From assembly GCF_026011715.1 (NCBI RefSeq), contig NZ_BRVM01000003.1, positions 189,297 to 253,296 on the forward strand: a stretch of 64,000 nucleotides of DNA, given 5' to 3'. This document shows positions 36,649 to 59,556 of the stretch, piece by piece. The notes under the pieces were generated by a model. It was not told the origin of the DNA. It did no database searches and saw nothing but the letters and a program-made list of their open reading frames with translations. The stretch's first letter is position 1. The number at the start of each line of letters is the position of its first letter. This stretch comes from Cytobacillus sp. NCCP-133 (GTDB lineage: Bacteria; Bacillota; Bacilli; Bacillales; Cytobacillaceae). Both the position numbers and the translations under genes were made by a program.

Positions 36649-36668
36649 TATTTATGATACGGTTCACC
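36649..36668. other. Left attachment site (attL) of the rlmH element
   Basis: TATTTATGATACGGTTCACC, one mismatch from the copy at 59414. Just inside, the recombinase frame would continue GTA ACG TTG GAT AGG GTA AAA TGA, stopping at 36690-36692. Confidence 0.8.
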
Positions 36669-36696
36669 GTAACGTTGGATAGGGTAAAATGATAAA

Positions 36697-36718
36697 TGGA
36701 GAGGAATAGTCCTCTCCA
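36697..36718. terminator. Hairpin just inside the left end
   Basis: TGGAGAGGA-ATAG-TCCTCTCCA is a perfect 9-bp stem. In the integrated state it can stop transcription of the subtilase gene (minus strand). In the excised circle it would lie 5 bp after the recombinase stop and end that transcript. Confidence 0.75.
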
Positions 36719-36754
36719 GAATTTTCAGTAATTTGTCAGTTTTAATACGTTCTA

Positions 36755-39118
36755 CTATATTTTAACCCTTACCTTTTTAACTCTTACTCTTTCTCTTAAT
36801 GAAATACTCTCTTGTACTCTCTGAGAAATTTCTGTATATAAATCCACTTCCTCTTTAGTATGTTCAAGTGTTACAACTAATGCATATTTTTGAGGACTGA
36901 CTTCTTCTGTAGCCCATTTACTTTCACATCTTACTACCAAATAATAAGTATCTCCATAATCTAATGGGTTTGAAGCTGTAAAGGTAGATTTTTGGACAGT
37001 GCATTTTTCTCTTACTGTAGGTGTTGGAATTAACTTGCAATTATTAGCACTAGGTACCCTCTCATCTAAATCTGTATCAACTTGATTTTTAGGTTTAAAA
37101 AAGTTTACCACTTCATCAATGCCTTTTCCTCGAATTAATCTATACGACATAGTGATACCCAAATAATCTAATCGTGTATGTCTAGTAGGTGGGTCAAATG
37201 CTAATGTTGCACATATAAATCTCTTACCTCTAACTTCATTAAAATCCTTTGGTATAGGAACTTCGAATATATGAAATTTATCTAATTCAATTGTTGTTTC
37301 AGCAAAAAGAGTAACTCTTTGATTATTGGATGTTAAAAACCTTTCTACCTGAGCAACACCATAACCATACATTTTAAGAAGTTCATCTTCAGTAAATGTA
37401 TCATCTATACCTTTAGGATATTCAGCAGAATGTACTAAAATTGCTCTTACTAGATTAGCAGAAGCTCCTTTAAAAACATTTAATATTCTTGAAGCTTTAT
37501 AAGTTGAAACAGGAGCCGCAAAGCTTGTGCCGATATCTGTGGTAAATAATTCATTGGGCAGTTCTTTAGAAGTGCTTACAACAGAAAGTGCCCTATCTAC
37601 ATTTATTCTGCCTATTAGACCATCAAAAATGAGATTTCCACCATATTCACATAATTCAGGTTTAATGGACCCTTGTACTCCTGGTCCTGTACGAGTAAAT
37701 GGTGATGGATGATTTTCTTTCCCTATTACTCTTGCATCTACCCTGGTCTCTTTACGAAACAAATTTACAGTTGGACCACTTTCAAAAGCACAGTAGGAAC
37801 CGACTGTTATTGCTAGAGCTGCACTTGCAGGGTCAATAATCCTTGCTTTTTCATCGAAAAGATAAGTTGGATACTCAGACAGCACATTCTCTTCTATCTC
37901 CCCATCATAAAAGTAGTTACCTGCTGAAACTATTACTACTATGTCTAGTTCTCTTATTAACTCATCTAAAGTAGCTGCCCAATATGTTTGTTTTCCTTCT
38001 ACATAAGGTTTTTCACTATCCCCTAAAGAAATATTAAAGATTCTACATCCATACTCATGATAAAAATAATTTATAGCATCTCTCATTTGAGTCGTGATTA
38101 ATTTTTCATCATCAAAAGAATTATATTCATTTGTAACCCTTGCACTGAACAGCCTTGCTTGAGGTTTAAAAACACCATCATTAATACATTTTAAAACGTC
38201 ACCATATAAAGCTAAGCCACTAACTTTAGTCCCATGTCCCTCTTTATCCGTAGGTTCACCAATCTCAGTAGGAAATGAGACTGAGTCTCCAAGTGCTGGA
38301 CCAATCATAGGATGCCCTTCCATTACTCCACTATCAATTACACAAACTCCTGTACTTTCTGGGTCGGGTGGGATAACTTCTGGAAATGAGTCAATCGTTA
38401 AATTGCTTATTTCTCTAGGATTAAAGTATGGTTTAGGCGGAATATCGATTAAACGAACAATACTATCCTCTAATAAAATTTTAACAAGTTCACCAGTTAA
38501 GTTTGCACGTAAAACGACTATGGATTTCCCGATATAATTATCTGTTACACGGCCTTGGTTTGTTAGTATTATTTTTCTAACTTCCTCTATTTTTTCATTA
38601 CACAGCTGTCTTGAACCCAAGTGCCAAAGCTCAATATCAACCCAATATGTATCATTATTCTTTATTTCAATTTTACTTAATTTAGGACCAATCCTGTCTT
38701 GTGGGGTTAATGTCGAAACTGTTTCAATATTAGCAAAGACTTGATTATATGATGGGTGTTTATTTCCTTCCTTCGGTCCATTTTGATATTGTGCCAATCT
38801 AGCTCTAAATTCAGTTAACTCTTTATCAGAAGCAAAAAGAATAAGTGCATTATTGGAGTCTTCACCAATTACTTCCAAATCGCATTTCCTTAATTCATCT
38901 GCTTGAATTTTATTAGCATAACTTATTTTAAGAATTAGTTCTGGATTTAATCCTTTTGTTTCATTTTTCTTTGTTTCATTGAGCAGCTCCACAACATCAT
39001 TATTTATTTTTGTGGCATGCGTATTATAATTTCTAGATGAAGCATTACCAAATCCATGTTTTCGTCTGTCATATTCAACATCAATTCTTACCAATGGAAG
39101 ATTATTAAACTCCGTCAA
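36755..39118 (-). CDS. Subtilisin-like serine protease (S8), partner of the AAA+ ATPase
   Basis: 787 residues. The catalytic triad is complete: Asp262 in CVIDSGV, His295 in KEGHGTKVSG and Ser532 in IGTSFAAPVS, with the oxyanion Asn401 in VSAGN. About 250 residues precede the protease domain and about 250 follow; no signal peptide is seen, so it works in the cytosol. The start is TTG 39118, only 3 bp after the AAA+ stop, behind GGGGAG. ATPase-subtilase gene pairs recur on genomic islands and are suspected of defence or stress roles, but no mechanism is known to me. Target unknown. Confidence 0.85.
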   Translation of the reverse strand: MTEFNNLPLVRIDVEYDRRKHGFGNASSRNYNTHATKINNDVVELLNETKKNETKGLNPELILKISYANKIQADELRKCDLEVIGEDSNNALILFASDKELTEFRARLAQYQNGPKEGNKHPSYNQVFANIETVSTLTPQDRIGPKLSKIEIKNNDTYWVDIELWHLGSRQLCNEKIEEVRKIILTNQGRVTDNYIGKSIVVLRANLTGELVKILLEDSIVRLIDIPPKPYFNPREISNLTIDSFPEVIPPDPESTGVCVIDSGVMEGHPMIGPALGDSVSFPTEIGEPTDKEGHGTKVSGLALYGDVLKCINDGVFKPQARLFSARVTNEYNSFDDEKLITTQMRDAINYFYHEYGCRIFNISLGDSEKPYVEGKQTYWAATLDELIRELDIVVIVSAGNYFYDGEIEENVLSEYPTYLFDEKARIIDPASAALAITVGSYCAFESGPTVNLFRKETRVDARVIGKENHPSPFTRTGPGVQGSIKPELCEYGGNLIFDGLIGRINVDRALSVVSTSKELPNELFTTDIGTSFAAPVSTYKASRILNVFKGASANLVRAILVHSAEYPKGIDDTFTEDELLKMYGYGVAQVERFLTSNNQRVTLFAETTIELDKFHIFEVPIPKDFNEVRGKRFICATLAFDPPTRHTRLDYLGITMSYRLIRGKGIDEVVNFFKPKNQVDTDLDERVPSANNCKLIPTPTVREKCTVQKSTFTASNPLDYGDTYYLVVRCESKWATEEVSPQKYALVVTLEHTKEEVDLYTEISQRVQESISLRERVRVKKVRVKI

Positions 39119-39121
39119 ATC

Positions 39122-40117
39122 CTACTCCCCTCCTTTGTATATTCTAATCCTTTGCTTTTGCCTCTTTATTGAATCCATAATCACAGATGTGTTTAATGAC
39201 TGAATATCATGTAATAAGCAATATTTTATGGCATCATGACAGGCACGTTCTATCTCGGCATGACTAAAACCATCCATTTCATCAACAATTTTTTTTGTGT
39301 CTAGGTTCCCTAAAGAAAAACTAGCAGTTTTCTTTCTAATTAATTTAGAAATGTCTTCTTTATTAGGTTTACCGAAATAGATAACTTCATCAAATCGACG
39401 CCAAATCGCTTTATCTAGAACATCTTCATGATTTGTACAAGCTATTATAAGGCTATTTCCATCGTAGTTATCAATTATTTGAAGAAAGCTATTTACTACC
39501 CTTTTTAATTCACCATGTTCATTTGAGTCATTTCGACTTTTACCAATAGCATCAAATTCATCAAATAACATGACCCAAGTATCTTTTGCTACAAAATCGA
39601 ATACCTTTCTTAAGTTGGTAGAAGTATCACCCAAGTAAGAAGAAATAATTGAATCAAACCTGTTATAAATCAGGTTTAAACCTAATTCTCCCGCCAAAGC
39701 TTCTGCACAAAGACTTTTTCCACACCCTGGTGGACCACAAAATAATATCTTTGTTTTAGGTTTTAAATTATATGATTTAAGAAGTTCAGACCTCCAAAAT
39801 TCTTCAATTATCTCGTTAATCATTTCTTCATTTTGTTGTGATAAAATAATATCGTCTAAATATTTTTGAGGTTTTCGAATATCAATTAATGGTATTTCAT
39901 TATCATCTTTAGGCAAAGATACCATATCTGAAAATTTTCTAAATGTTCTAGAGATATTCATTTCTGCTTCAATTATTTTTTGTAATTGGTCTGCTAATAC
40001 ATTATGGTTTTTTTTACGTTCATCCCTTATAATTTCTAAGGATATTTCTTTAAACTTTTTATCCTCTCCACGTTGGTATGCTAAGAGTAGCTTTTTTAGC
40101 AAATCACCTCTCGCCAT
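39122..40117 (-). CDS. AAA+ ATPase, partner of the subtilase
   Basis: 331 residues, one AAA module of the FtsH/Cdc48 class: Walker A FCGPPGCGKS (127-135), Walker B VMLFDEFD (182-189), sensor-1 Asn in ACTNHED (about 229) and arginine-finger pair WRRFDE (240-241). The N-terminal 80 residues are helical and charged and may recognise the substrate or the partner. No membrane helix. It is cotranscribed with the S8 gene (3 bp gap), so it may unfold proteins or gate the protease. ATG 40117 follows GGAGGAGGTGTAACC. Confidence 0.85.
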   Translation of the reverse strand: MARGDLLKKLLLAYQRGEDKKFKEISLEIIRDERKKNHNVLADQLQKIIEAEMNISRTFRKFSDMVSLPKDDNEIPLIDIRKPQKYLDDIILSQQNEEMINEIIEEFWRSELLKSYNLKPKTKILFCGPPGCGKSLCAEALAGELGLNLIYNRFDSIISSYLGDTSTNLRKVFDFVAKDTWVMLFDEFDAIGKSRNDSNEHGELKRVVNSFLQIIDNYDGNSLIIACTNHEDVLDKAIWRRFDEVIYFGKPNKEDISKLIRKKTASFSLGNLDTKKIVDEMDGFSHAEIERACHDAIKYCLLHDIQSLNTSVIMDSIKRQKQRIRIYKGGE

Positions 40118-40364
40118 TGGTTACACCTCCTCCCTAACCTTTAAAAAAGCAAACAAGAATATTTTTCATAATAGCATTGGTTTATGTAAATTATATCAGT
40201 TGTAAATAAGCTTATTAGCAGTATAAACAAGTATTTTTCATAGAAAACACAGTTTATAAAATAAGGATTTACTTTAGATTTAAATTTACTATCTACCTTT
40301 CAGTTCTATTTTACTAGATTAGGAATAATATTAAATATTAAATCTAGTAATTGGGGTGAAGGTC

Positions 40365-40802
40365 ATGAGCAAATTCAAAACAGGACAAGCCGTTAAAATT
40401 AAGCACAATGGAAAGTTCGGACAAATTGTTTCTGGAATTAAAGAACGTAATAACAAGTATTCCGTGGTCATACGGAATAAAAACAGAGAAGTAGAAATTA
40501 ACTTTTACCACAATGATGATTTAGAACATTATGAGAACAATTGTTGGAACTGTAATGCACTTGTTAATAGTTCCCAAGATGAAACTTGTGTAACCTGCGG
40601 TTTGGTAATATGTTCAATTTGTCACCGGTGTCGAAAAGGTGGCTGTATACCAAATGGTATTACAATAAACCAAAATAAACGGCCAATAAAGGCAAAGATT
40701 AAAAGAAAAACTGATAACAAGCAATTACCAGATTCAGACGGCTTGGGTTCTAGTTTGGGCAAAGAGTTTTGGGAAAGTATAGATAATATGTTAGAAAAGT
40801 AA
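40365..40802 (+). CDS. Small zinc-ribbon protein
   Basis: 145 residues from ATG 40365 (GGGGTGAAGGTC upstream; an in-frame GTG 40356 is overlapped by that site). The N terminus looks like a small SH3/KOW-type barrel (FKTGQAVKIKHNGKFGQIVS). The middle has CWNCNALV, CVTCGLVICSICHRCRKGGC, six or more Cys and a His that could bind two zinc ions. The C-terminal tail is charged and ends in an amphipathic helix. I do not recognise it. It is the only plus-strand gene within the defence cargo and is divergent from the AAA+/subtilase pair by about 250 bp, so it might regulate them, but that is inference. Confidence 0.65.
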   Translation: MSKFKTGQAVKIKHNGKFGQIVSGIKERNNKYSVVIRNKNREVEINFYHNDDLEHYENNCWNCNALVNSSQDETCVTCGLVICSICHRCRKGGCIPNGITINQNKRPIKAKIKRKTDNKQLPDSDGLGSSLGKEFWESIDNMLEK

Positions 40803-40860
40803 TATGTGTCTTTAGGAATGAGTCACGGTTGACCCATTCCTTATTATTTTATATCTTATG

Positions 40861-41799
40861 CTACAAATTTTTAACATAAGAGGAGATTGCTTTATAAAAT
40901 TTATTCATGCAATCAATCATCTCTTCTTGAATTTGCGACCACGATTCTTCATTCGCTTTTAATCCACCCATATTAATTGTATACTTTATTCTAGACGCCC
41001 TTTTCTCATCAAGTCTTTCCCATTCTAATTTCTTTTGGAATGCATTTTCAATCGCTTCTTTGTTTTTGTAAAGCTCATCAAACATTTGCTTGTTCCGTTC
41101 CGTTCCTCGTCCCCTGTATCAATATAAAGCTCAACACCTTTTTTTTCATCAATCCAGATTAGAAATTATAACTTAGTCCTGCTTTACCCGCTCCAGTCCC
41201 TAACCACATATTCTTGGTTGGGTTCTTATTAATATGTAGATTTACTCACTTTATTTTGGCCATTGTTAATAACTGTTCCCAAAATCTAAGACGGAGAACA
41301 TGCCTCTCAGCTAAGTCTTTCGTTTGTCGGCCAAAGTCTTTCGTTTCTTCATTAGGACCAGCAATCATCGTAAATAGTGGAGCTGGTTTTGAATCACCTA
41401 TTCTATAAGCTGCAAGTTTAATTAAATAGAAGGAAACATCAACAGGTGTAGCCTCGTTTAACCATGTAATTGCATTAATATGTTCAGGTCTTGGCTCACT
41501 TACTATCCAGATTGCTGTCTTTGCATCCAAGTTACTCAAATATGTTAATATCTTTCCAAGATGGTCATGGTTTGTTGGTTCTAATTGGTTCTCAATAACT
41601 ACTATATTACCGTCTGAATCCTCAGCAACAATGTCAACCTGAAAGGAAACAACCCTTCTCTCTCTTTAACAACCGTTAATTCCAAATTAATTAAATTTGA
41701 AATTAAATCAATATTATCCTCTAGCCAACTTGAGAAATCAAACTCCTCATGTTTCCAGATGGCCCTTAGTGTTACTGGTTCTAGCTTTCCAATCCCCAT
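40861..41799 (-). pseudogene. Broken DUF4268-domain gene (nuclease-like)
   Basis: Three pieces in different frames make one protein: MGIGKLEPVTLRAIWKHEEF (from 41799), then VDIVAEDSDGNIVVIENQLE running into LTYLSNLDAKTAIWIVSEPR, and finally MFDELYKNKEAIENAF with ISSYVKNL at the end (40861). This order and wording is that of DUF4268-domain proteins, whose N-terminal part carries a PD-(D/E)XK-like core (VDIVAED ... VIENQ). There is a frameshift near 41645 and more damage between 41246 and 41085. Such proteins sit beside restriction systems. Not functional here. Confidence 0.8.
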
Positions 41800-42067: not shown

Positions 42068-42583
42068 CTAGTAATATAAGTGTGAAATGTTCTCATTAAT
42101 TTGTCGTTTTACTGACTGAAGTATTGATATCTGATTCTCTACCCACTCTATCCATTCGCTTCCTTGAAATGCTGGTTTACTTCGAAAATGGCCGCCTTCA
42201 TCAATTAGAATTGAATAAGCGATGTAAGCATCAGCTTCAAGAACATATCTTTGAATCCTATCTATATCCTTCCCGATTTCACTCCATGAGGCTACTGGAA
42301 ACTTCGTTGGAACTATATCTGTTCTCCTGTGAGATGGTTCATACTTAAATTCAACCGCTAATTCAATTTGCATGTCTTCACCTAAGACTACTAAATCAGC
42401 TCTTTGCTTAGGTAAAATGGAAAAATCATTGTGAACCTGTAATGGACAGTTGTATTGGTCTATAAGTTTGTTCATCATGGTTTGAACAGTCAGAACAATA
42501 TCTCTTTCCACATAAAACTTGTAATTGTTATAATCTTTTCTTAATCTATTAATAGCCTCAAGAAATAGTTCTTCTGCTTTCAT
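42068..42583 (-). CDS. PD-(D/E)XK-type putative nuclease
   Basis: 171 residues. Glu25 in YVERDIV, Asp63 in QRADLVVLG and Glu78-x-Lys80 in AVEFKYEP follow the alpha-E, D, ExK order of the PD-(D/E)XK nuclease superfamily. The C-terminal half is helical (GKDIDRIQRYVLEADAYIAY). It is probably a small DNA nuclease or a subunit of the neighbouring restriction system. It is on the same strand as the HNH gene, 141 bp downstream. ATG 42583 has a weak ribosome site (GGAATC). Confidence 0.6.
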   Translation of the reverse strand: MKAEELFLEAINRLRKDYNNYKFYVERDIVLTVQTMMNKLIDQYNCPLQVHNDFSILPKQRADLVVLGEDMQIELAVEFKYEPSHRRTDIVPTKFPVASWSEIGKDIDRIQRYVLEADAYIAYSILIDEGGHFRSKPAFQGSEWIEWVENQISILQSVKRQINENISHLYY

Positions 42584-42724: not shown

Positions 42725-43870
42725 TTAAACTAAATCATTTATATGCACCTTTAGTAAACCCTTAAGCTCCTGAATCGTTAATACATTATTCTTTCTACGA
42801 TGTATCATTCTATGGCAGTTCGAACAAACAGGTACTAAATCTGTTTCTGGATTAATTTCAGTTTCTTCACCAATGGTATGAAGAGGCTTAACATGATGTA
42901 CTTCTATAAAGTCTTTACCCCGTTCCCCATATACATTTTCAAAATTGAATCCACATGCTTTACAAGTTACGCCATGAATTTCAATTGCTTTCGCCCTATT
43001 TACTGGATTTCGCTCATAACGTGTTCCAAAATATTCTATGGTTTTCCCATCTTTATAATAGGATTCCTCTTGTGCACTCTCTGAATCAATATCATTATCC
43101 ACTATATGTTTGAAAAACAATGACCTTTCTTCAAAGAAAAGTGGTTCTAAACTATTTTTTTTTTCTTTTTCCCATAATTCTTCACCAGGTCTGTCTGGCT
43201 TATAATGCATCATGGTAATATCGTCATTTTTAATAGTTGAAGCATAATTAAATAATAGCTGAAGCCCTATCCGCTTGGCAGGAGTTAATAACTGCTTTTT
43301 AGTGAGGTCTTCTATTGTACTTTTATTCACTAGCTTATCTTGGTCTAATACAAGGACATGGTACTGAAATGGCCCATGCTGTTGAGTATCAAAAAATGCC
43401 TTCACAGTTAGTATGTAATACTTTGTTCTTTTACCCTTAAGATATTTTTTGGCTGTTAAAATATCATTCAAGTTAATTTTGTTTGAGTTTGTTCCGATAT
43501 TATTTTGCAATGTAAATGCCTTGTCTAAAAAGGCCGCCCAATCATCACAACTGAATACACTTTCTTTTTGTTCTGTAAAAAACTCATCCCACTTTGATGG
43601 AGGTAAGGTAGGATACCCCATTTTTGCTGCTACCCAAGTGAAAAAACCTTCTCCTGGGAGCCTAGTATCATGGTTCACCACAATTGCTGAAAGAGGAGGA
43701 TATCCATGTTTGATACAACGCAAAGAAATTTCACCCAAAGGTTCATTAAGACGAATCGGTGTTATTACCCCACCTAATTTTTTACTGACTTGGTTGTACT
43801 CAATCACATCTTGATTTTTTGCATACTCAATTATTAATTCGCTTATCTTTTTAAGAATTGTTTCGTTCAC
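42725..43870 (-). CDS. HNH endonuclease of the restriction cluster
   Basis: 381 residues from GTG 43870, which has GAAGGAGGTCTAAC right in front; a longer in-frame ATG at 43951 would overlap the res gene and a hairpin, so I reject it. The C terminus is a zinc-type HNH: VTCKACGFNF, then DFIEVHHVKPLHTIG and LVPVCSNCHRMIH, as in McrA-like restriction enzymes. The N-terminal 270 residues include NHDTRLPGEGFFTWVAAKMG, a region I do not recognise but which could read DNA or modified bases. It follows res by 58 bp after a hairpin. Confidence 0.85.
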   Translation of the reverse strand: MNETILKKISELIIEYAKNQDVIEYNQVSKKLGGVITPIRLNEPLGEISLRCIKHGYPPLSAIVVNHDTRLPGEGFFTWVAAKMGYPTLPPSKWDEFFTEQKESVFSCDDWAAFLDKAFTLQNNIGTNSNKINLNDILTAKKYLKGKRTKYYILTVKAFFDTQQHGPFQYHVLVLDQDKLVNKSTIEDLTKKQLLTPAKRIGLQLLFNYASTIKNDDITMMHYKPDRPGEELWEKEKKNSLEPLFFEERSLFFKHIVDNDIDSESAQEESYYKDGKTIEYFGTRYERNPVNRAKAIEIHGVTCKACGFNFENVYGERGKDFIEVHHVKPLHTIGEETEINPETDLVPVCSNCHRMIHRRKNNVLTIQELKGLLKVHINDLV

Positions 43871-43897
43871 AGTTAGACCTCCTTCTATAAAGGAAAA

Positions 43898-43920
43898 GTA
43901 GGAGTCAAATAAACTCCTAC
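43898..43920 (-). terminator. Hairpin between res and HNH (terminator or attenuator)
   Basis: GTAGGAGT and ACTCCTAC around 7 bases, followed on the minus strand by TTTTCCTTT. It sits 9 bp past the res stop and 28 bp before the HNH start, so it could lower HNH expression. Confidence 0.7.
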
Positions 43921-43928
43921 CTGTAATG

Positions 43929-50113: not shown

Positions 50114-52972
50114 TTAAACCACTGTCCAACGTATAGTAAATAATTCTTCCTGTTCTGTTTTTTGAACCATTTTCTTTTCAAGTTCATCAATAAGGTCATC
50201 ACGCTTATCCATTATTTCATCTTCAACATCAAATATACGTTGCCTTTGCCTCCGCTGCAGTCGTTCCAAGTCCTTAATGTGTTTTTGTATTTGGTGTTGC
50301 TCTTCTGTCGATTTGGCCAGCCTCGCTTGCCGCTTGGCCTCTTTAATTTTTGCCTTTGTATCATTTAATTCCTTTTCAGAAGCAAGTACTAAATCGTCCG
50401 CCCACTTTTCTAATCTTTCTCTTTCCTCATGGAAAAACTTATTATTGCTTTCAAGTGATTTGCTAATGGTTGCTTCAACGTGACGGTTAGCATCTTTTTT
50501 TAAGGTCAAAAGTTTATCACTAGAACAATTCGTTTGCTTATTTTCATGGCCAACGCATTGAAACAACTTTTCACATGTTTCCTGGTCCATTGTTTTATTA
50601 TCATCAGTAACTCCGTTAAAAAGCAAATATTCTTCTTTACCGTAGGAATCTATTGATAATTTAGTTAATGTTAAAAAGCCACTTTTACCCTTAAGAGATT
50701 CAATTACAGATATTCGGACAGGGTGATTGGTTATATCAAATTGCACTTCGCTTAGATGGGTTGGTATTAATTTTGCCGAATTTATGACATATTCCCCGAG
50801 AGGGTCTGAAAGCCGGTAAAGATGTGCTCCTGTTTCCTTTTCGTCTTTGGAGATAAGCTCATATTTCCCCATAGGAATATTGGAAATTGGTGGCTCCTTT
50901 ACTAGAGTAAATGTTAAGTCATCATCGTTGAATTTTGCCTTTTCCTTTAACATAATTTTAGTTAAAGACCAGAACATCTTACCTACTCGGTCTAAATGGT
51001 ATTTGGTATCTTCAAGATGGACTTTTAATCTCGAATGGACATCCATATCAAAGTGCTCTAGTAAAGCTTTCCTTGTATCGTCTAAACGGCTTTGGATTTG
51101 TTGCTCCAATTCATTTTGCAACTCTTTAAAAGCATTCTCAATTTCTTCTGGTGTACGACAGCGTTGATAGATTGATAAAATTCGTTTTTCAAAATCGACG
51201 CCTGATTCAATACTACCTAACACTTCATCGGAAGCACCTAGAACACCTGTAAAGAGGTTAAATTTCTCTTTAAGGAGTTCATAAACCCTTCTATCTGCTT
51301 CATTACGCTCATTTAAGAAGTTAATAACCACCACATCATGCTTCTGTCCATAGCGATGACAACGTCCAATCCGTTGCTCAATTCGCTGCGGGTTCCAAGG
51401 GAGGTCATAATTAATAACCAATGAGCAAAATTGAAGGTTAACTCCTTCTGCTGCTGATTCTGTAGCTATCATAATTTCTGAAGAGTCTCGGAAATATTCA
51501 ATTAACGCAGCTCTCATATCTGCTGTTTTAGAGCCACTAATTCTACTTGTATTTTGGTTCTTCTCTACCCAATTTTTATAGATTCCTTTTGAATGTTCAT
51601 CAGTGTTTGTCCCATTAAACAATACAATTCTACCTGCATATCCATTCGCCTCCAAAAAGTCTTTTAGATACCCCTGGGTACGTCTAGATTCAGTAAAAAT
51701 TAGGGCTTTTCGACTCGCACCCATTTTCCCCATTTCGACAAATCCTGTTTCAAGAGCTTTTAATAATGAACGTGATTTACTGTCAACACGGATAGACCTA
51801 GCCCAGTTTAATAATCTGTTAACCTCTTCTATTTCTTTCTTCAGCTTTTCTATATTTAAAGGCTGTATTACCTCATTTTCATCATCATCTTCATTGTACT
51901 CTTCCTCTATTAATTCCGTTTCCATTTCATCCAAATCTACTAATTTCTCTAACCAGTTATCTTCAGGAGTGTAACTGCCTAAAGTGGCTTCTAAACGCTC
52001 CTTTATCGTATTTAGTGTACCTGAAAGAGCCTGGGATGATGATGCAAGTAATTTGCGAATGATTAACGTCGTTAAGACCTTTTGTCTATTAGGGATGGCA
52101 TAGGTATCTTCACGTAATAAAAACTCTGATACCGCTTGGTACAAAGCTTGTTCATCATCTGTAGGTCTGAACGGGAAAGTTATTGGGATTCTCTCTGTAT
52201 AACGTATGTATTCCAAAACTTGAGAACGAAGGGTTATGTGACAGAACGCCCTTAACCTATCCTTTAAGTCTTGTAAATTACCATTATTACTCATATATTG
52301 CGAACGGAAAGCTCCTATATCACCAAAGATATGTTCATCTATCAATAAAGATAGGCCAAATAACTCTAGTAACGAATTATGCAAAGGTGTCGCTGTTAGT
52401 AGTAGTTTCTTAGTGTCATCTAACGCCCATTTGATTCCTTTACCTAGCTTGTTACTGTGACGATAAACATTCCGTAATTTGTGGGCTTCATCAATAACAG
52501 CCATATCCCAAGGAACAAGCTTTAATTCATTTCTTTTACGATTTGCAAATTGAAAAGATGTAATTATTATTGCATCTTGTATAAACGGATTACCTTTTCC
52601 ATTACGTATATAGTCGTTAAACGATTTCGCCTCTAAAATAATACTTGGAAGATTAAATTTCTCTTTAAGCTCCATGCTCCATTGTTTACGCAGAGATGCT
52701 GGGCAAATAATAATAAGCTTCCTCTCACGCTCTGCCCACTTTTGACACAATACTAACCCTGCTTCAATTGTTTTCCCGAGTCCGACCTCATCAGCAAGTA
52801 CAACACCTTTAGATAAAGGAGAACGGAAAGCAAACAGGGCTGCTTCAATTTGATGAGGGTTTAAGTCAACGGATGCATCAAATAGAGACCTGGACAGCTT
52901 CTCAACCCCAGCTTCGGTTGATTGCCTCGTTAATTCATGAGCAAAATATTTTGCATGATAGATTGTTGACAC
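50114..52972 (-). CDS. SNF2/RapA-type helicase, first gene of the restriction operon
   Basis: 952 residues. Motif I VVLADEVGLGKTIEAG, DEAH-type box AVIDEAHKLRN, motif III LLLTATPLHNS, motif V ATESAAEGVNLQ and motif VI RIEQRIGRCHRYGQ are complete. The C terminus is a long coiled coil (ARLAKSTEEQHQIQKHIKDL and on). Similar SNF2 helicases occur as DrmD in DISARM, but drmA, drmB and drmC are not here. The role is likely DNA translocation or sensing for the Mod-Res pair. GTG 52972 follows AGGGGGGATTTTT. Confidence 0.9.
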   Translation of the reverse strand: MSTIYHAKYFAHELTRQSTEAGVEKLSRSLFDASVDLNPHQIEAALFAFRSPLSKGVVLADEVGLGKTIEAGLVLCQKWAERERKLIIICPASLRKQWSMELKEKFNLPSIILEAKSFNDYIRNGKGNPFIQDAIIITSFQFANRKRNELKLVPWDMAVIDEAHKLRNVYRHSNKLGKGIKWALDDTKKLLLTATPLHNSLLELFGLSLLIDEHIFGDIGAFRSQYMSNNGNLQDLKDRLRAFCHITLRSQVLEYIRYTERIPITFPFRPTDDEQALYQAVSEFLLREDTYAIPNRQKVLTTLIIRKLLASSSQALSGTLNTIKERLEATLGSYTPEDNWLEKLVDLDEMETELIEEEYNEDDDENEVIQPLNIEKLKKEIEEVNRLLNWARSIRVDSKSRSLLKALETGFVEMGKMGASRKALIFTESRRTQGYLKDFLEANGYAGRIVLFNGTNTDEHSKGIYKNWVEKNQNTSRISGSKTADMRAALIEYFRDSSEIMIATESAAEGVNLQFCSLVINYDLPWNPQRIEQRIGRCHRYGQKHDVVVINFLNERNEADRRVYELLKEKFNLFTGVLGASDEVLGSIESGVDFEKRILSIYQRCRTPEEIENAFKELQNELEQQIQSRLDDTRKALLEHFDMDVHSRLKVHLEDTKYHLDRVGKMFWSLTKIMLKEKAKFNDDDLTFTLVKEPPISNIPMGKYELISKDEKETGAHLYRLSDPLGEYVINSAKLIPTHLSEVQFDITNHPVRISVIESLKGKSGFLTLTKLSIDSYGKEEYLLFNGVTDDNKTMDQETCEKLFQCVGHENKQTNCSSDKLLTLKKDANRHVEATISKSLESNNKFFHEERERLEKWADDLVLASEKELNDTKAKIKEAKRQARLAKSTEEQHQIQKHIKDLERLQRRQRQRIFDVEDEIMDKRDDLIDELEKKMVQKTEQEELFTIRWTVV

Positions 52973-53283: not shown

Positions 53284-53532
53284 ATGAGAAAGCTTCACAA
53301 GGAGACAGTAAAACGTGTCATAACTGAAAGAGGAGAATGGTCAGGGTTCCTAGCATCTAGCCAAGAAAGTAAGGGTCATCTCAAAGACCTATGGTGCTTT
53401 GGGATAAAGTGTACTATTCGTAGTTTAGAAGAACTTGAACAGACTATGGAGAGGTTAAGCAATTATAACGGAAATGGTGAACTGGAACATCTAATGTCAT
53501 TTTATGAAGGAAGTAACGGAGAAAGCAACTAA
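53284..53532 (+). CDS. Small hypothetical protein of the element
   Basis: 82 residues, basic at the start (MRKLHKETVKRVITERGEW), then mixed with LEELEQTMERLSNYNGNGEL. ATG 53284 follows AAAGGAGGTGAAACA, a very strong ribosome site. It is the first gene of a group with the next gene, 19 bp away. I do not recognise it. Likely cytoplasmic. Confidence 0.6.
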   Translation: MRKLHKETVKRVITERGEWSGFLASSQESKGHLKDLWCFGIKCTIRSLEELEQTMERLSNYNGNGELEHLMSFYEGSNGESN

Positions 53533-53551: not shown

Positions 53552-54277
53552 TTGAAGGATGCATTAGAAAAGCTACGTAATGTAATTCCACTGTCAGAAA
53601 AAGTGGAACAGGCTAATATTGTTCCTAGTCTAGCAATCTCTTTACGAGAAGCGAAAGAAAGAATTAAATTACTAGAACAGTTTGTTAGAGAGATGATGAC
53701 GGAAGGGGTAGATTACGGGAAAATTGAAGGATTTGACAAGCCAACCCTACTTAAACCTGGTGCAGAAAAACTGTGTGATATATTTGGTTTTTCCAAACAA
53801 GTCAGTATTATCAATCGTATTGAGAACTGGGAGAAAGGGATATTTGCATACGAGGTAAAGGTCACTCTTATTAGTAAGCAAACAGGGCTGATGGAGGCTG
53901 AAGGAATCGGAACATGTAACAACAAAGAGAAAGCTTATATTAACCAAGACCCATTCAGCGTAATCAATACACTTCTAAAGATGGCAAAGAAACGTGCATT
54001 AATTGATGCAGTACTATCAGCAACAAGAGCTAGTGGAATTTTCACTCAAGATATTGAGGACTTCTCAAAACAAACTCACATCAAAGGAGGTAATGAACCA
54101 GTCACTGAAAGGCAGCTACAAATGATTTTTAGAACAGTTAAAGAAATCAACATGCTTCCTGAAGTTGCAAGGGAACTGATGAGGATGCAATACAACGTGG
54201 AGCACAGTACAATGCTAACAAAACAACAAGCATCATCTTTCATCCAGGACTTGTTGCTACTTAAGGAACAGCCCTAA
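53552..54277 (+). CDS. Conserved hypothetical protein, KPTLLKPGAEKL family
   Basis: 241 residues from TTG 53552 behind AAAGGAGTGAAAAACA. The marked stretch EGVDYGKIEGFDKPTLLKPG then AEKLCDIFGF near residue 55-85 is found, from memory, in many phage and plasmid proteins. DPFSVINTLLKMAKKRALID at 130-150 is the second conserved block, also recalling single-strand annealing-type phage proteins. The C-terminal 60 residues are a helical domain (TERQLQMIFRTVKE). It may handle DNA in replication or recombination of the element, but no function is proved. Confidence 0.6.
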   Translation: MKDALEKLRNVIPLSEKVEQANIVPSLAISLREAKERIKLLEQFVREMMTEGVDYGKIEGFDKPTLLKPGAEKLCDIFGFSKQVSIINRIENWEKGIFAYEVKVTLISKQTGLMEAEGIGTCNNKEKAYINQDPFSVINTLLKMAKKRALIDAVLSATRASGIFTQDIEDFSKQTHIKGGNEPVTERQLQMIFRTVKEINMLPEVARELMRMQYNVEHSTMLTKQQASSFIQDLLLLKEQP

Positions 54278-54290
54278 GGAGGTGAATCAA

Positions 54291-54357: not shown

Positions 54358-54444
54358 AATGCACAAAAAAAATGAGCTCAATTTACGAACTCATCAATAA
54401 TCACCTTATAAACATCATACAGAAAAAATCTATTTCAATCAATT

Positions 54445-54470
54445 GGAGGGACATTTGTCTCTCCTTTTTT
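54445..54470 (+). terminator. Hairpin with six T ahead of radC
   Basis: GGAGGGAC-ATTT-GTCTCTCC-TTTTTT. It ends 28 bp before the radC start, so it acts either as a second terminator or as an attenuator of radC. Confidence 0.7.
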
Positions 54471-54497
54471 ATTTCAAAATAACTGGAGGAATATTCT

Positions 54498-55103
54498 ATG
54501 GATATATTTGATAAATACACATTTAAAATTTTACTTGCAGCTACAATCAGAGAAAAAGAAGATGGATATATCGTAAATGAGATTTTCAGCCGCTTTCCGT
54601 CCATTCAGGAATTACTTGAAGTAACAGAAGAAGAACTCTTGCAAATTAAAGGGGTTGGCAAGGGTAAAGCCCAACAAATTATGTCGGCATTAAAACTTGC
54701 ACGTATGAATCCGACACCAATGGAAACTCGCTTTGCAATCAGAAGCCCTGAGGATGGTTATCGCTATTTAAAAGACATGCAGTACCTAAATAGAGAAGAG
54801 TTTGTTTGCTTAGGCCTTAATACGAAAAATGAGGTATTATTTCGTGAGACTGTATTTGTCGGCTCGTTAAACGCTTCGATTGTGCATCCCCGCGAGACGT
54901 TCAAATGTTTAATTCGTCGCAGTTGTGCCAGTGCCATTGTGGCTCATAATCATCCATCTGGACAGCCAGAGCCTTCAAGAGAAGATATAGAGATTACCAA
55001 ACGTCTTGCCGAAGTTGGTAAGGTTGTGGGCATCGAAATTCTTGACCACCTAATAATTGGACATGAAAAATATATTAGTTTAAAAGAAAAAGGATACCTA
55101 TAA
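54498..55103 (+). CDS. radC: RadC-family JAMM/MPN protein
   Basis: 201 residues. A helix-hairpin-helix (LLQIKGVGKGKAQQI, about 47-61) is followed by the RadC domain with the zinc-binding JAMM set His150, His152 and Asp163 in VAHNHPSGQPEPSREDIEIT. Chromosomal RadC is about 225 residues; this shorter form with a reduced N terminus is typical of copies carried by islands and plasmids. Its enzymatic role is still unsettled; links to DNA repair and recombination are disputed. ATG follows ACTGGAGGAATATTCT. Confidence 0.85.
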   Translation: MDIFDKYTFKILLAATIREKEDGYIVNEIFSRFPSIQELLEVTEEELLQIKGVGKGKAQQIMSALKLARMNPTPMETRFAIRSPEDGYRYLKDMQYLNREEFVCLGLNTKNEVLFRETVFVGSLNASIVHPRETFKCLIRRSCASAIVAHNHPSGQPEPSREDIEITKRLAEVGKVVGIEILDHLIIGHEKYISLKEKGYL

Positions 55104-55109
55104 AATTAA

Positions 55110-55157
55110 GAAGGATTAAAATGGGGACTGACTATTTGTTGGTCCCTATCCTTTTAT
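55110..55157 (+). terminator. Terminator of radC
   Basis: AAGGAT-GGGAC and GTCCC-ATCC arms around TGACTATTTGTTG, followed by TTTTAT. Confidence 0.7.
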
Positions 55158-55251
55158 AATTATAAGTACCCATTACAATTGAAATAATCCATTAATAGTT
55201 ACAACCGCATGACGAGCATGAAGGACATAAAATCCAACCGTATCTATTACA

Positions 55252-55491
55252 TTACTCCATTGTCTCATCAAGGCGTTTTCTACATTTCTTACTATGACAT
55301 CTTGGAGTCCTTCCATCGTGCATCAATTCACTAGAATGGACATGCTTAGGAAGAATTTCTCCTGGAACTCTAACCACGCAAATATCTTTATGTACCTTAT
55401 TACTTTCATATTCGTTAGAATCATAGATAATATCGTTTTTCCCCTTATAACCTTCCTTTTTATGCCTAACAGTTTGTCCGACCTTTAACAT
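55252..55491 (-). CDS. Small hypothetical protein with SH3-like start and Cys/His tail
   Basis: 79 residues from ATG 55491, with TAGGAGGGATTCTTATT before it. MLKVGQTVRHKKEGYKGKND looks like a small beta-barrel start; the C terminus CHSKKCRKRLDETME with HVHSSELMHDG is rich in Cys, His and Lys. The same kind of start is seen in the 40365 protein of this element. No function known. It is antisense to the radC transcript and ends 150 bp from it. Confidence 0.55.
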   Translation of the reverse strand: MLKVGQTVRHKKEGYKGKNDIIYDSNEYESNKVHKDICVVRVPGEILPKHVHSSELMHDGRTPRCHSKKCRKRLDETME

Positions 55492-55750
55492 AATAAGAAT
55501 CCCTCCTAGCTTTGATAATACATTATATGAACTAAAAGGGATTCTATTACTATATTCACTATCTGATAGATTCATAATAAGTTGTAAAATTGGTTATCAC
55601 TTAATTGGTTATAACGATAATGTTTATTGGTAACTCCCCTTTACATATAGGTCTATCCCTAGTTTTGTCCGCTTTTTATTCACTTACTGTTATATTAAAG
55701 CCATTGAATCTATATATAATCCTATGAAAATGTTGGTTTTGTAACACCTA

Positions 55751-56662
55751 TTATAAAAAAAATTCGTTGTCCTGCTTTCTCCATTTTAATATGGCATCTT
55801 TATATTGTGATAATAAAGATTTAACGAAACCTAATTCATTCAAAATACGTATGACTCGGTTTCTTTTACGAACATCTAACTGTTTTAATGTCGCTATCAT
55901 TGAATACTTGCCATTATTAATTGCCTGTACATTATATTGTCTTAAAATATCATTTATATCTTTAGTTTCAGCATTAACAAGGATAACATCTTCAAATAGC
56001 TTCAATTCTGTTACACTATTCAAAAAAGTAATTAGAGTCATTTGTTCTGTTTTATCATATGACCTTGTAGTCTCTATCCTTGTCCAAACGATGCTTATCC
56101 CCTGTTCTTTCCCTTTGTCATATATCCGTATTCTTATTTTGCTATGAGTGCTTCCCAGATACAGAGTACCTTTTTCAAAATACCTTTCATCTATCTTTCT
56201 AAAATCCGAACACCACCATATTTTATTCATACACTCATATGGGTCAAGACCAAAGAAATCTAACTTTGTATCTACCTTTTTTACAAATATTCGTTGCACA
56301 TCAGTTACTAAAAATCGACACCATTCATACAACTGTTTTGGAGAAAGCCCTCCTTTAGACGGATTAATCCTTATTTTGACTGCAGGGACACATGGAAATA
56401 TTGGTTCAAGCATAACTGTAACACAACCTAAAGAATAACTGACCTTATATGGCTGCTTCTCGTTTGCTTTAAGATATTCTTTTCTAAAGAGGGGCTCAAT
56501 TTCATAAAATCCAGCCGCTAAAGATGAGTCTGTCAATACCTCGATTCCATCAATCGGGCAGTCGCCTATCTCATTGTGTTGTTCAAACAAATAGGAATAC
56601 GTTATAGCAACAGACGACGGTAATTGTTGTACCTTAGTGTTCCAAGTCTTTGATAACTTCAA
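55751..56662 (-). CDS. Rep_trans-like replication initiator
   Basis: 303 residues. Three features fit rolling-circle initiators of the pT181/Rep_trans and replication initiation factor group: KVDTKLDFFGLD (about 129-140), GTLYLGSTHSKIRIRIYDKG with Tyr181 (165-184), and VWTRIETT (192-199). In pT181 RepC the matching YxGSRxS...RxYDK block holds conserved residues of the nicking domain. The final 70 residues form a basic helical part. An element that is excised by a serine recombinase and also encodes a Rep may replicate as a circle. TTG 56662 follows GGGGAAGTAGCT. It is divergent from the HTH gene. Confidence 0.7.
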   Translation of the reverse strand: MKLSKTWNTKVQQLPSSVAITYSYLFEQHNEIGDCPIDGIEVLTDSSLAAGFYEIEPLFRKEYLKANEKQPYKVSYSLGCVTVMLEPIFPCVPAVKIRINPSKGGLSPKQLYEWCRFLVTDVQRIFVKKVDTKLDFFGLDPYECMNKIWWCSDFRKIDERYFEKGTLYLGSTHSKIRIRIYDKGKEQGISIVWTRIETTRSYDKTEQMTLITFLNSVTELKLFEDVILVNAETKDINDILRQYNVQAINNGKYSMIATLKQLDVRKRNRVIRILNELGFVKSLLSQYKDAILKWRKQDNEFFL

Positions 56663-56998
56663 AGCTACTTCCCCTATGCTGGTAAAACCAGAGGAGCATT
56701 ATATTAACTTAAAGTATAAGTTTACTCCTCAAGGTCTCTATTGGTATACGGTTAGAGGAGTGGCAACCATATTATACCGACCTTAGCTAGTACCTGGTGT
56801 TCAAGCTTGTTCCAAACCTGATTAAACTAGATATATTGTATACAGCTTAATATAAATTGCAGCTAATACCTTATGTTATAGTAAACAATACATATTGTTA
56901 ATTAAAATTCTTACACTATCTAAATAATATAGTATTATATTGAATTATTATTGTAAATAACAAATCTTACATTTATAATAGAATAGAGGTGATTAATA
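56663..56998. other. Intergenic region between rep and the HTH gene, possible origin
   Basis: GAGGAG...CTCCTC arms (56691-56730) enclose an AT-rich loop, and a second GAGGAG occurs near 56756. An AT-rich stretch follows with GTAAACAA and TATTG blocks. It holds the promoters of both neighbours and is a natural place for the Rep's double-strand origin. No gene seen. Confidence 0.4.
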
Positions 56999-57556
56999 AT
57001 GACATTTTCGCAAAAAGTTAAGAGAAAACGTTCAGATTTGGGACTTAGTCTACGTCAACTATCAGAAAAAACCGGTATTTCACACGCACACATATCCGAT
57101 ATAGAGAAGGAAAAACATCCTCCTTCATTTGAAGCATCGTTAAAATTAGCTAAGGCACTCGAATTGGATATTAAAGAAATCATCATCGAAACGTACCAGG
57201 CTCAGTTAAGACAGTCTTTAATGGAATTAGTTAAAACATGTCATGAAAATAATATTCGGATTCCCTATGAAGAGTGGGTTAAATCTAATTTACCAATGCA
57301 ACCACTTGGAACTGAAGAAAGTAAAATCAGTGATGCGGCTTTTAAAATTGCTACAGCTTTGTTTAATGATTCAAATCAGTTTTCTGTTGAAGAAAAAATT
57401 AATCTACTTACAGCTATTTCAGCATCCTCAAATCAAGGAACAGTGTATACCTTCCTTCAAAGGCTCTTAGAACCTATCAGTATCGCTTGTGGATTAAAAG
57501 GGAGTCTTAAAGTGAATGAAGATATAAACAGATATATTAAAGAGTTAAGTTCTTAA
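56999..57556 (+). CDS. XRE-family HTH regulator of the element
   Basis: 185 residues. An HTH_3 domain at the start (VKRKRSDLGLSLRQLSEKTG, SHAHISDIEKEKHPPSFEAS) is followed by a helical 120-residue part that may bind a signal or make dimers. ATG 56999 follows ATAGAGGTGATTAATA. It is the first gene of the right-end operon (HTH, small protein, recombinase) and is the obvious candidate for control of excision. No RecA-type autocleavage or ImmA-like partner is seen. Confidence 0.8.
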   Translation: MTFSQKVKRKRSDLGLSLRQLSEKTGISHAHISDIEKEKHPPSFEASLKLAKALELDIKEIIIETYQAQLRQSLMELVKTCHENNIRIPYEEWVKSNLPMQPLGTEESKISDAAFKIATALFNDSNQFSVEEKINLLTAISASSNQGTVYTFLQRLLEPISIACGLKGSLKVNEDINRYIKELSS

Positions 57557-57586
57557 GGAAGTAAGTTTTAAAAGGATGTGTTAATT

Positions 57587-57760
57587 ATGAATATGTGGCA
57601 GAAAACAAAACCTTTTTATAATGAACTTAAAAGCTTACCTATTGAATCACAAAATGGTAAGCATAACAAACAAATATTTATAGCCGCGGTGTCTCAAGCA
57701 ATTAACCGTGTTAAATACAAGGATTATAAAACACACATAGAAACGGAGGGAAAAGAATGA
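57587..57760 (+). CDS. Small protein translationally coupled to the recombinase
   Basis: 57 residues from ATG 57587 (AAAGGATG upstream). MNMWQKTKPFYNELKSLPIE, then a basic helix SQAINRVKYKDYKTHIETEG. Its TGA overlaps the recombinase ATG (ATGA), a sign of coupled translation. Position and size fit a recombination directionality factor, but sequence gives no proof. Confidence 0.6.
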   Translation: MNMWQKTKPFYNELKSLPIESQNGKHNKQIFIAAVSQAINRVKYKDYKTHIETEGKE

Positions 57761-59556
57761 ACATTAAAAAGGCAGTAATATATGCTCGTGTAAGTACAGA
57801 AGAGCAAGCAACCGAAGGATTTAGTATTAAGGCTCAGTTATCCGAACTATACAGACAAGCAGAACTGTTGAACATGGAAGTTATTAATGAGTACATAGAT
57901 GAGGGCGTAAGTGGTAAGAGTATCGCTGGCCGTCCAGAAATGAAAAAACTATTAGCTGATGCACGTCATAGAAAATTTGATATTGTTCTGGTATATAAAT
58001 TAGACCGTGTTTCAAGAAAATTAAAAGATGCTTTGGAAATTAGCGATGAACTGGAACGTAATAATGTTCAATTGATGAGTTTAAATGAAAACTTTGATAC
58101 GACAACTCCTATGGGTAAAATGGTGTTTCAAATGATAAGCTCGTTTGCTGAATTAGAACGTAACACCATTGTTGGCCGTGTCAAAATGGGGATGACAGAA
58201 CGAGCAAAGCAAGGGAAATTCAACGGAGGACTTTGCCTAGGATACGATAGTATTAATAAACATTTAGTCATAAATGATGCTGAAGCTATCATCGTGAAGG
58301 AGATTTTTAACCTTGCTGAACAAGGATTAGGATTAAAGGCTATAACACATCGTATAAATGAAAAAGGATTTAAATCAAAACGGGATAAACTTTTCTCCAC
58401 TAATGCAATTAAACAAATATTAGATAATTCAATGTACATTGGTAAAATACGCTTCAATCAAGTTGAGGATTGGAATGAAAAACGCCGCAGAGGTAAAAAT
58501 GAGAACTTTATTCTTGCAGATGGAGAGCATGAACCAATTATTACTCAAGAACAATGGGATAAAGTGCAGAGTATCCGTCAAAAAAGGTCTATCAAGCCAT
58601 CCCGCTCACAAGAGCCATATATTCTCAGTGGCTTATTAAAATGCCCTGTATGCGGTCACGGAATGGTTCCGAGTCGTTCAAAAGGAGCTGCAGGTCAGAC
58701 TTATCGTTACTATACTTGTGGCCAGTATCATAATAAAGGCAAAGAAGCATGTCGACCAAATTCAATACGTGCCGACAAAGCCGAACAACATGTATTTGAA
58801 GAGTTATTACGTATTGTCTCACAACCATCAGCATTAAAGAAAATCATTGCAGAAACCAATAAGCAGAGAAGTCATTCAATGGAGCCAATTCAAGAGGAAA
58901 TAAAGCTGCTAAAGTCTAAGGTTAACAAAATCACAGGCCATATAGATAAACTAATGAATGCTCTTCTTGACGAGGAACTGCCAAAAGAAATTGTTAAACC
59001 AAAGCTAGTTTCTTCCCAGGAACAAAAAAAGCAGCTAGAAGAACGCCTGGAAGCGTTAAATACGGAAATAACAGAAGCCGATACTTCACCTGTTGACTAT
59101 GATTCAGTACAACAACTATTAGGGGACTTTCAGGTTTTACTCTCACGGGTTGAGCCAGAAGAACAAAAGATACTGCTCCGCTCTATCATCAAAGACATCC
59201 AGGTAAGTCTGGAAGCCCCACGTGGTATAGGTCGTCATATTACAAAGATTAACCTTTTCTTTGATTTCACTATCGATGCTATGGCCGATAGCTACGAATT
59301 ATTGCAAAGTATTTATCCTGACCTTGAGCAGCAGCTAGATACTTGGTCAACAAGCTCCATTTCATACGGTAAATATAAAAGGGACATGCTTGAGTCCCTT
59401 AATAGTTTACCTTTATTTATGGTACGGTTCACCCCGATTAATCCGAAATGCCCGATAAACCTGTTCCAAGAGTATCAGCTTCATCAGCTGATGAGGAAAC
59501 GTCATTTTCGAAAAAGAAAGCTTCTCATCCGCCCGCTGCAAAACCTCCTGGCTTAA
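57757..59556 (+). CDS. Large serine recombinase of the rlmH element (integrase)
   Basis: 599 residues as integrated. The resolvase domain has the nucleophile Ser13 in [19 protein letters not shown] (81-89) and [17 protein letters not shown] recombinase domain follows (GLCLGYDS and on), then a zinc ribbon with Cys296, Cys299, Cys321 and Cys332, then a coiled coil (about 365-420). The last ~47 residues, from codon 553, are read from the att site and rlmH antisense sequence. Before integration the frame should end PLFMIRFTVTLDRVK (566 residues). It should cut and join attP and attB with a 2-bp staggered break and phosphoserine links, as in SCC Ccr and phage Int enzymes. Confidence 0.9.

Follow-up and report, generated by a model that had tools for sequence, protein, structure and literature searches.

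In the genome of Cytobacillus sp. NCCP-133, a 64,000-nucleotide stretch (contig NZ_BRVM01000003.1, positions 189,297 to 253,296; hereafter the window) contains a 22,765-bp integrative island at the 3' end of rlmH, the gene for the 23S rRNA pseudouridine methyltransferase. This island very probably belongs to a sister lineage of the staphylococcal cassette chromosome (SCC), in which a single CcrB-related large serine recombinase would join a circular form of the element to the rlmH 3' end. The original prediction, made from the sequence alone, had left open whether the element is a relative of SCC or an independent user of the same attachment site. The homology of the recombinase to CcrB, a recombinase clade whose tree rows all lie at rlmH and the shared codon, GA dinucleotide and palindromic layout favor the former, and both its recombinase and its site mark the island as most likely an SCC relative. 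The name SCC itself does not apply, since the recombinase falls below the curated Ccr cut-offs and a Pfam scan of 17 island proteins gave no match to Cch, CcPol or a second recombinase.

The island is delimited by a 20-bp direct repeat, TATTTATG[A/G]TACGGTTCACC, whose copies at 36649-36668 and 59414-59433 (both on the minus strand) differ at one position. Three matches with up to three mismatches are present in the window, compared with a mean of 0.01 in dinucleotide-preserving shuffles; the third, at 27070-27089, is a poorer copy with three mismatches over 20 bp and one over a 17-bp core. A strict search for the 17-bp core across the whole assembly (4,306,804 bases in 62 contigs) gives two matches only, both at the island ends. 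The right-hand copy (attR) forms the end of rlmH (59413-59892, minus strand; SPOUT_MTase, E 4.8e-61), whose product ends in ...GEPYHK, while the left-hand copy (attL) would represent the former last rlmH codons of the host. Strand exchange is placed at the GA dinucleotides 59429-59430 and 36664-36665, between which the length of the island is counted. The G+C content of the island is 34.4%, versus 41.1% in the left flank and 40.4% in the right. Beside attR lies an intact frame for a large serine recombinase (57757-59556, plus strand) with Resolvase, Recombinase and Zn-ribbon domains (Pfam), the 3' end of which crosses attR and extends 144 nt into rlmH on the opposite strand. The repeat, its identity with the last rlmH codons and the adjoining recombinase had all been predicted and are thus borne out.

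The point of exchange can be narrowed by comparing islands of this kind (G and L numbers are our handles for genomes and loci). Besides the window island, eight others have an identified second end, namely those of Metabacillus (15,585 bp), Pseudalkalibacillus (17,093 bp), G169 (25,812 bp), G054 (8,072 bp), G032 (26,026 bp), G041 (30,116 bp), G040 (29,207 bp) and Paraliobacillus (19,138 bp); in Ornithinibacillus, Terrihalobacillus, Virgibacillus and G109, a search of the stretches covered did not reveal one. The island-derived left arm (36666-36688, minus strand) ends in ACGGT[GA] in all nine islands with both ends, and the exact 23-mer TTTACCCTATCCAACGTTACGGT recurs in five of them, with few differences in the other four. 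The bases outside attL differ by host; at rlmH, the base before GA is host-dependent and the bases after it track the island type. Exchange within the shared block GAACCGTA follows from this combination, and the first two bases of the block are the GA of a Glu codon in rlmH (GGT GAA CCG TAC CAT AAA TAA). The symmetry of the arms points to this GA as the exchange centre and, from sequence, suggests it as the exact exchange dinucleotide. The accessible text of PMC10581047 likewise gives GA as the central dinucleotide of CcrAB.

The arms of the window island pair as a palindrome around GA at 15 of 23 positions, a value reached by none of 10,000 shuffles, and scores of 13 to 18 are obtained across all nine islands, each equalled or exceeded by no more than 22 of 10,000 shuffles. 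In the window, the host attachment site (attB) scores 4, attR 6 and attL 12, the last because the core is partly self-symmetric. The island-derived right arm, ACCGTACCATAAATAAAGGTAAA (59406-59428, minus strand), includes the outer motif RGGTAAA, which lies 17 to 23 bases after GA in all 14 window-clade loci with rlmH alongside; a second clade of recombinases at rlmH, described below, has AGGCAAA at the same spacing in 11 of 11 loci. Clade membership in these counts comes from the tree, except for L013, L022, L042 and L045, which lie outside the tree and were placed by similarity. Staphylococcal arms in the same data (for example ...ACCGCATCA...GCA[GA]AGC...TGATGCGG...) have the layout of the window site, and six of the seven staphylococcal genomes examined also have a second end bearing an arm of this kind; among seven non-staphylococcal stretches in that survey, four (G362, G306, G519 and G447) gave no rlmH match and are uninformative.

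On the host side, the sequence outside attL (36580-36648, minus strand) resembles that found directly after rlmH in G034 (71 bp, 82% identity), G046 (55 bp, 80%) and G056 (56 bp, 79%), with the core included in each comparison, and no recombinase of the window kind was found in about 19 kb downstream of rlmH in these three genomes. Because they belong to other species and G034 carries a cassette of its own, they provide an equivalent of the empty site and not an empty sister strain.

Taken together, the ends, junctions, homology and relatives, as read from sequence, are consistent with the following mechanism. The recombinase would join the circular island to the rlmH 3' end by strand exchange at the GA of the codon for Glu in the G-E-P-Y-H-K tail of RlmH, and the island's own attachment site would be the palindrome centered on that GA. 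The right half of the site appears to encode P-Y-H-K-stop together with a terminator-like hairpin, so that integration would rebuild a working RlmH tail; the last codons of the present rlmH are thus probably supplied by the island, while the old host codons would end up at the far junction. The excised circle junction is expected to read ...CAACGTTACGGTGAACCGTACCATAAATAA..., and a module of Rep, RadC and RAD52-like proteins may replicate or repair the excised circle. The cargo, comprising type III restriction-like genes, a DrmD-like helicase, an HNH nuclease and IetAS, would probably defend the host against phage, which would favor retention of the island. We infer the present activity and the role of each module, and regard the island as probably still mobile. 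The hairpin itself (59379-59400, minus strand; AAGGGAC...GTCCCTT) lies just inside attR, after the rlmH stop and within the recombinase coding sequence, and is the only one found in 59200-59600, compared with 0.2 expected from shuffles. Other islands have different hairpin arms (AAGCGAA...TTCGCTT) at the same place, which suggests that the structure may terminate rlmH transcripts.

The significance of the RlmH tail is evident from Escherichia coli, in which the Y152F, H153F and R154A variants are each inactive according to the available part of PMC5430550; an attachment site that restores this tail therefore makes sense. Among 29 rlmH rows with a recombinase alongside (two rows repeat a locus), the protein ends in GEPYHK in 24 and in GEPYHR in one. 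In four distinct islands, those of G040 (L154), G032 (L156), G041 (L158/L043) and Paraliobacillus (L174), the tail of the host RlmH is altered to YIF or YIFQG, and each of the four carries a second full-length rlmH ending in NEPYHK (G041 is apparently Cytobacillus kochii L043, and L012 and L043, apparently one genome, are counted once). The element-borne copies are 93-98% identical to one another, compared with 71-86% among the four host copies. The window island and those of Metabacillus, Pseudalkalibacillus, G169 and G054, which are also covered in full, give no second rlmH match. Our reading of these sequences is that the attachment site must re-encode the RlmH tail or the island must bring its own rlmH, and that host RlmH with a YIF tail is presumably inactive; the four rule-breaking islands with a spare rlmH are what make the tail constraint visible. 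The searches made found no published account of sister islands that change the host RlmH tail and bring a separate rlmH, and literature on a second rlmH or orfX copy, judged by title and the opening of the abstract, yielded no element-borne rlmH, which does not establish absence from print. A comparable arrangement occurs in the CI ccrDE islands, which according to the accessible text of PMC10581047 carry a spare copy of the gene they enter; these differ in their target, rimL, and in their recombinase pair, CcrDE.

Sequence comparison identifies the window recombinase as a distant CcrB homologue. Its NCBIfam scores are 372 bits for CcrB (cut-off 900), 314 for CcrC (900) and 130 for CcrA (700), and alignment over part of its length gives 34-40% identity to the staphylococcal CcrB proteins retrieved. 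Recombinases of 83-94% identity are situated at rlmH in Metabacillus, Pseudalkalibacillus and Ornithinibacillus, and partial matches occur in Terrihalobacillus and Bacillus sp. REN3. In eight of nine named loci rlmH lies at the recombinase 3' end; the exception, L044 from Bacillus sp. V3-13, holds a 3' fragment (125-628) with an att core away from rlmH, beside a gene that we take from its resemblance to encode a 23S rRNA uracil methyltransferase, and stands outside the tree. That tree, a quick maximum-likelihood reconstruction of 77 rows, was obtained after 17 of 94 candidate rows (multi-domain contigs, near copies and short pieces) had been removed by hand; the broken recombinases of G169 and Terrihalobacillus are likewise outside it, and CcrA and phage rows are long-branched and of unsure placement. 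The window recombinase falls in an 11-row clade, all rows of which are at rlmH, with a Shimodaira–Hasegawa-like approximate likelihood ratio test (SH-aLRT) support of 100, and 14 of 15 window-clade loci were seen at rlmH. Its sister (SH-aLRT 90) is a second 11-row clade with ten rows at rlmH, the remaining recombinase (G160) and its rlmH being on different contigs; staphylococcal CcrB forms a separate clade, and further rows that overlap rlmH (L027, L072 and L057) are placed elsewhere. The comparison with Ccr proteins and the tree, both proposed by the original prediction, thus show a distant CcrB relative in a clade of its own at rlmH. Two findings set beforehand as a test, the same downstream genes in relatives lacking the repeat and a recombinase in a family with a different site, did not appear. 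In four loci of the second clade (L015, L016, L017 and L021), a partner recombinase is located just upstream in a ccrA-ccrB-like order, with partners unlike CcrA.

Beyond this clade, a family-level search (E 1e-100 or better) returned 29 matches in 28 of 193 genomes. Apart from the window, 16 of the 28 matches overlap rlmH, ten share its contig at 7 to 65 kb downstream and the remaining two are on different contigs. In a class-wide sample of Bacilli, the CcrB model (E 1e-80 or better) gave 56 matches in 47 of 398 genomes, of which 45 share a contig with rlmH and 41, in 36 of the 47 genomes, lie within 80 kb downstream; since some genomes have two matches, these are not independent. Nine of the 56 pass the CcrB cut-off, and without them 38 of 47 matches are on the rlmH contig and 34 within 80 kb. 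Three of the four matches lying far away on the rlmH contig belong to a family (f25) that also holds full CcrB matches.

Several observations weigh against the interpretation of the island as an SCC relative that integrates at rlmH. No circle, empty sister strain or transfer has been observed, and the nearest "empty" flank, that of G034, comes from another species with its own 696-bp cassette at the site. The symmetry was noticed before the palindrome centre was set, and the nine islands are related, so that their scores are not independent tests; attL, too, pairs at 12 of 23 positions in the window. The L044 fragment, from a close relative of the recombinase, is not at rlmH; of the 56 CcrB-like matches, 11 lie on contigs that lack rlmH and four on its contig but far away. 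In G169 and Terrihalobacillus no long intact recombinase frame is present, which indicates that some islands of this kind are probably dead, and the RAD52-like assignment rests on a weak model. The relationship to SCC is further qualified by the sister grouping of the two rlmH clades, at only 90% SH-aLRT.

These same data bear on the rival explanations. Separate arrival of the recombinase at rlmH, with the likeness to the Ccr site arising only from the fixed coding of the RlmH tail, seems improbable: much of the core sequence is indeed forced by codons, identity to staphylococcal CcrB is limited to 34-40% over part of the length with scores below all Ccr cut-offs, and the tree unites the two rlmH clades at 90% SH-aLRT while leaving CcrB separate and L027, L072 and L057 elsewhere; however, the GA centre and the palindromic arms at like distances are not codon-forced, and the position of 41 of the 45 CcrB-like matches sharing a contig with rlmH, within 80 kb downstream and across many families, makes one ancestral specificity the simpler account. 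A formerly mobile island that is now fixed and retained for its defense genes is a somewhat more credible alternative, albeit still unlikely, and is favored by the gene fragments in mid-island (pieces of PDC-S11 and DUF4268 genes). Yet the recombinase frame is intact with its domains, both arms are present, the difference between attL and attR is expected from host-derived codons, and a 94-96% identical recombinase in the Metabacillus island accompanies other cargo, which points to fairly recent movement.

The overlap of the recombinase with rlmH raises the further notion that its C-terminus, which would comprise 41 codons of antisense rlmH in the integrated form and a short ...RFTVTLDRVK tail in the circle, could set the direction of the reaction. 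Both tails were computed and the circle-form RFTV... tail recurs in several islands, but the stop lies 20 codons before GA in Pseudalkalibacillus and two after it in Ornithinibacillus, and the antisense stretch is conserved because of rlmH; the overlap is probably incidental, and such a switch appears very unlikely. As a conserved feature, a state-dependent C-terminus was rejected, the stops falling before, just after or well after the site depending on the island. Least of all can the repeat be ascribed to chance, with the adjoining genes unrelated to it: short repeats in two copies are frequent, but the strict core is unique to the island ends in this assembly and the same arms occur in eight other islands, and these cross-genus arms refute the idea, leaving it a negligible likelihood. 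The integrative island with a CcrB-related recombinase remains the favored explanation.

A broader interpretation, offered tentatively and held to be slightly less probable than its negation, is that SCC is one twig of a Bacilli-wide system of CcrB-like recombinases dedicated to a single rlmH codon. Each site would re-encode the catalytic RlmH tail, or the island would carry a replacement rlmH as in the four sisters, and att-bounded cassette strings, most without their own recombinase, would accumulate downstream of rlmH in the manner of integron cassettes at attI, and arm motifs would correspond to recombinase clades. The approximately 20 kb that follow rlmH were examined in 33 genomes of the genus (633,733 bp) and contain 52 further core-like sites (at most two mismatches), all direct and none inverted, three of them being ends of element-borne rlmH genes; a looser mismatch limit adds one inverted copy (G050), and a reversed control pattern had no match in 36 genomes. 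Neighboring sites enclose 49 segments of 0.7 to 15 kb in 22 of the 33 genomes, such as the strings at L147 (G061), L149 (G031), L152 (G029) and L145 (G058). A match to the window recombinase lies inside three of these 49 cassettes (G054, G059 and G062), other kinds of recombinase not having been sought. Inverted repeats of at least 7 occur in 14 cassettes, a count not above permuted pairings (296 of 2,000 reach 14), whereas none of 2,000 permutations reaches the mean arm match, and this test therefore supports the cassette reading only partly.

The 188 predicted cassette proteins form 136 clusters. Of the 19 scanned (ten with Pfam and ten with PADLOC, one with both), some match Hachiman HamB, HEC-05-like and PDC-S39 proteins and others PhoD, GMC oxidoreductases, TerD and an actin-like protein, while five of the ten submitted to PADLOC had no match. 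Cassette strings behind rlmH in many genomes of the genus may thus be a source of defense and metabolic genes, and recombinase clades with distinct arm motifs and one core constitute a natural set for studying how these enzymes read DNA. More generally, the machinery of the methicillin-resistance cassette, here associated with defense genes, would be set in the wider context of environmental spore formers, with an attachment site that doubles as the coding sequence of a catalytic tail. Groups of same-direction core sites are also seen far from rlmH or on another contig (G048:C1:3131380-3137523, G030:C1:1237304-1255107 and G031:C38:162217-171060), perhaps as secondary islands or rearrangements.

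Core and cargo genes were compared with those of 11 other islands, three of which are not covered to the far end. Next to the recombinase lie a Cro/C1-type helix-turn-helix regulator (56999-57556, plus strand; HTH_3), with a 98% relative in the Metabacillus island only, and a rolling-circle-type, Rep_trans-like replication initiator (55751-56662, minus strand), which scores 27.5 bits for PF02486, just below the cut-off of 29.6, and weakly matches a solved rolling-circle Rep (PDB 4cij, E 4.2e-5, six-sequence profile). They are followed by a small protein without a Pfam match (55252-55575, minus strand; 94% relative in the Metabacillus island), a RadC-family protein (54498-55103, plus strand; PF04002, E 4.7e-43) with 73-96% relatives in eight of the 11 islands, and a conserved 241-aa protein (53552-54277, plus strand) with relatives in nine, one a fragment. 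No credible relative of the latter was found by PDB sequence search; its low-confidence structural model (predicted local distance difference test score 62.8, predicted template modelling score 0.40) has its best PDB matches to RAD52 (E 9.9e-4) and its best viral match to a RecT-family entry (E 2.7e-12), with phage RecT/ERF entries also matched, and it is possibly a single-strand annealing protein of the RAD52/ERF type. A further small protein without a Pfam match is encoded at 53284-53532 (plus strand).

The cargo, all on the minus strand unless stated, starts with a DrmD-like SNF2 helicase (50114-52972; PADLOC DrmD 671 bits, NCBIfam DrmD_b 664.9 bits, below the cut-off of 950), a type III-like DNA methyltransferase (mod, 47105-50101; PADLOC MTase_III 787 bits), a type III-like restriction subunit (res, 43929-47093; PADLOC REase_III 794.5 bits) and an HNH endonuclease (42725-43951; PF01844, E 1.4e-7) with a weak type IV restriction match. 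The protein at 42068-42583 has no Pfam, PADLOC, NCBIfam or PHROG match. Two fragments follow, one resembling the middle of the PDC-S11 candidate defense protein (41246-41539; positions 90-182 of 314) and one with the end of a DUF4268 domain (40861-41085; PF14088 positions 68-139 of 140), and together they look like defense-gene remains inside the island. A protein without a Pfam match and with a weak PHROG 3261 match (40356-40802, plus strand) precedes IetA, the AAA ATPase of the IetAS defense system (39122-40117; PADLOC 320.9 bits), which adjoins IetS, its subtilisin-like protease (36755-39118; 517.9 bits), both matching PADLOC models as in the known system. Defense-type cargo with Rep and RadC and without mec had been foreseen, and agrees with these matches; no mec gene was recognised, and the Pfam scan of 17 island proteins revealed no transfer gene. 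Relatives of the helicase (26-31% identity) occur in five other islands, of IetA (28-41%) in two and of IetS (21%) in one, with none at E 1e-6 for mod, res and HNH. The wide retention of RadC and the 241-aa protein, together with the few relatives of the cargo, indicates a shared core with mostly different cargo.

Among known systems, SCC resembles the window island in its location in the rlmH 3' end, target codon, GA centre (inferred here), palindromic arms, flanking direct and inverted repeats and CcrB-kind large serine recombinase. SCC elements carry variable cargo, often including restriction systems, and use the Cch helicase and CcPol-MP as replication genes. The window island differs in having one recombinase, below the Ccr cut-offs, instead of a CcrA-CcrB pair, an arm motif RGGTAAA in its clade instead of GATGCGG, a recombinase gene that overlaps rlmH, no Cch or CcPol match and no recognised mec. 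SCC-like rlmH islands in Bacillus have already been reported (PMC10061031). The accessible portion of that article names Cch/CcPol-MP replication genes and describes rlmH islands with a polymerase and a single-stranded DNA-binding protein (Pol-SSB) in Bacillus, Planococcus, Paraliobacillus and others, which likewise lie downstream of rlmH, encode one or two large serine recombinases along with restriction-type cargo, form tandem composites and have known empty sites. They are defined by polymerase-SSB pairs, none of which was recognised in the window, where Rep, RadC and a possible RAD52-like protein are present instead. According to the accessible text of PMC6222049, elements of the Enterococcus cassette chromosome (ECC) kind share the rlmH 3' end, dyad-symmetric att sites and, in six of 32 elements, a rolling-circle-type rep, and differ in their CcrAB pair and Enterococcus host. 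Within the literature searches made, the present analysis adds the lone-recombinase lineage with its core, the sisters that carry rlmH and the breadth of the family; the main text of PMC10083194, the part of that source covered, makes no mention of rlmH.

The mod and res genes resemble a type III restriction-modification system by their PADLOC matches, and differ from it in the DrmD-like helicase and HNH gene alongside. The DISARM set comprises drmA, drmB and drmC beside drmD or a methylase. A DISARM assignment was rejected, the DrmD-like helicase alone matching as best hit next to type III mod, res and HNH genes.

Rfam at gathering scores gave no match in 36000-60000. Beyond rlmH, the genes at 60296-63933 presumably represent the htrA/yycJ/yycI/yycH end of the wal locus, named here from translations. 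On the other side of the island, the decayed core copy at 27070-27089 has the same direction as the island ends and is followed by AACAAGGTTTT, like other cassette starts. The relatives of the adjacent mtlD in the genus sit elsewhere than rlmH, and together with this decayed copy they suggest that the stretch from 27 to 36.6 kb may be an older insertion.

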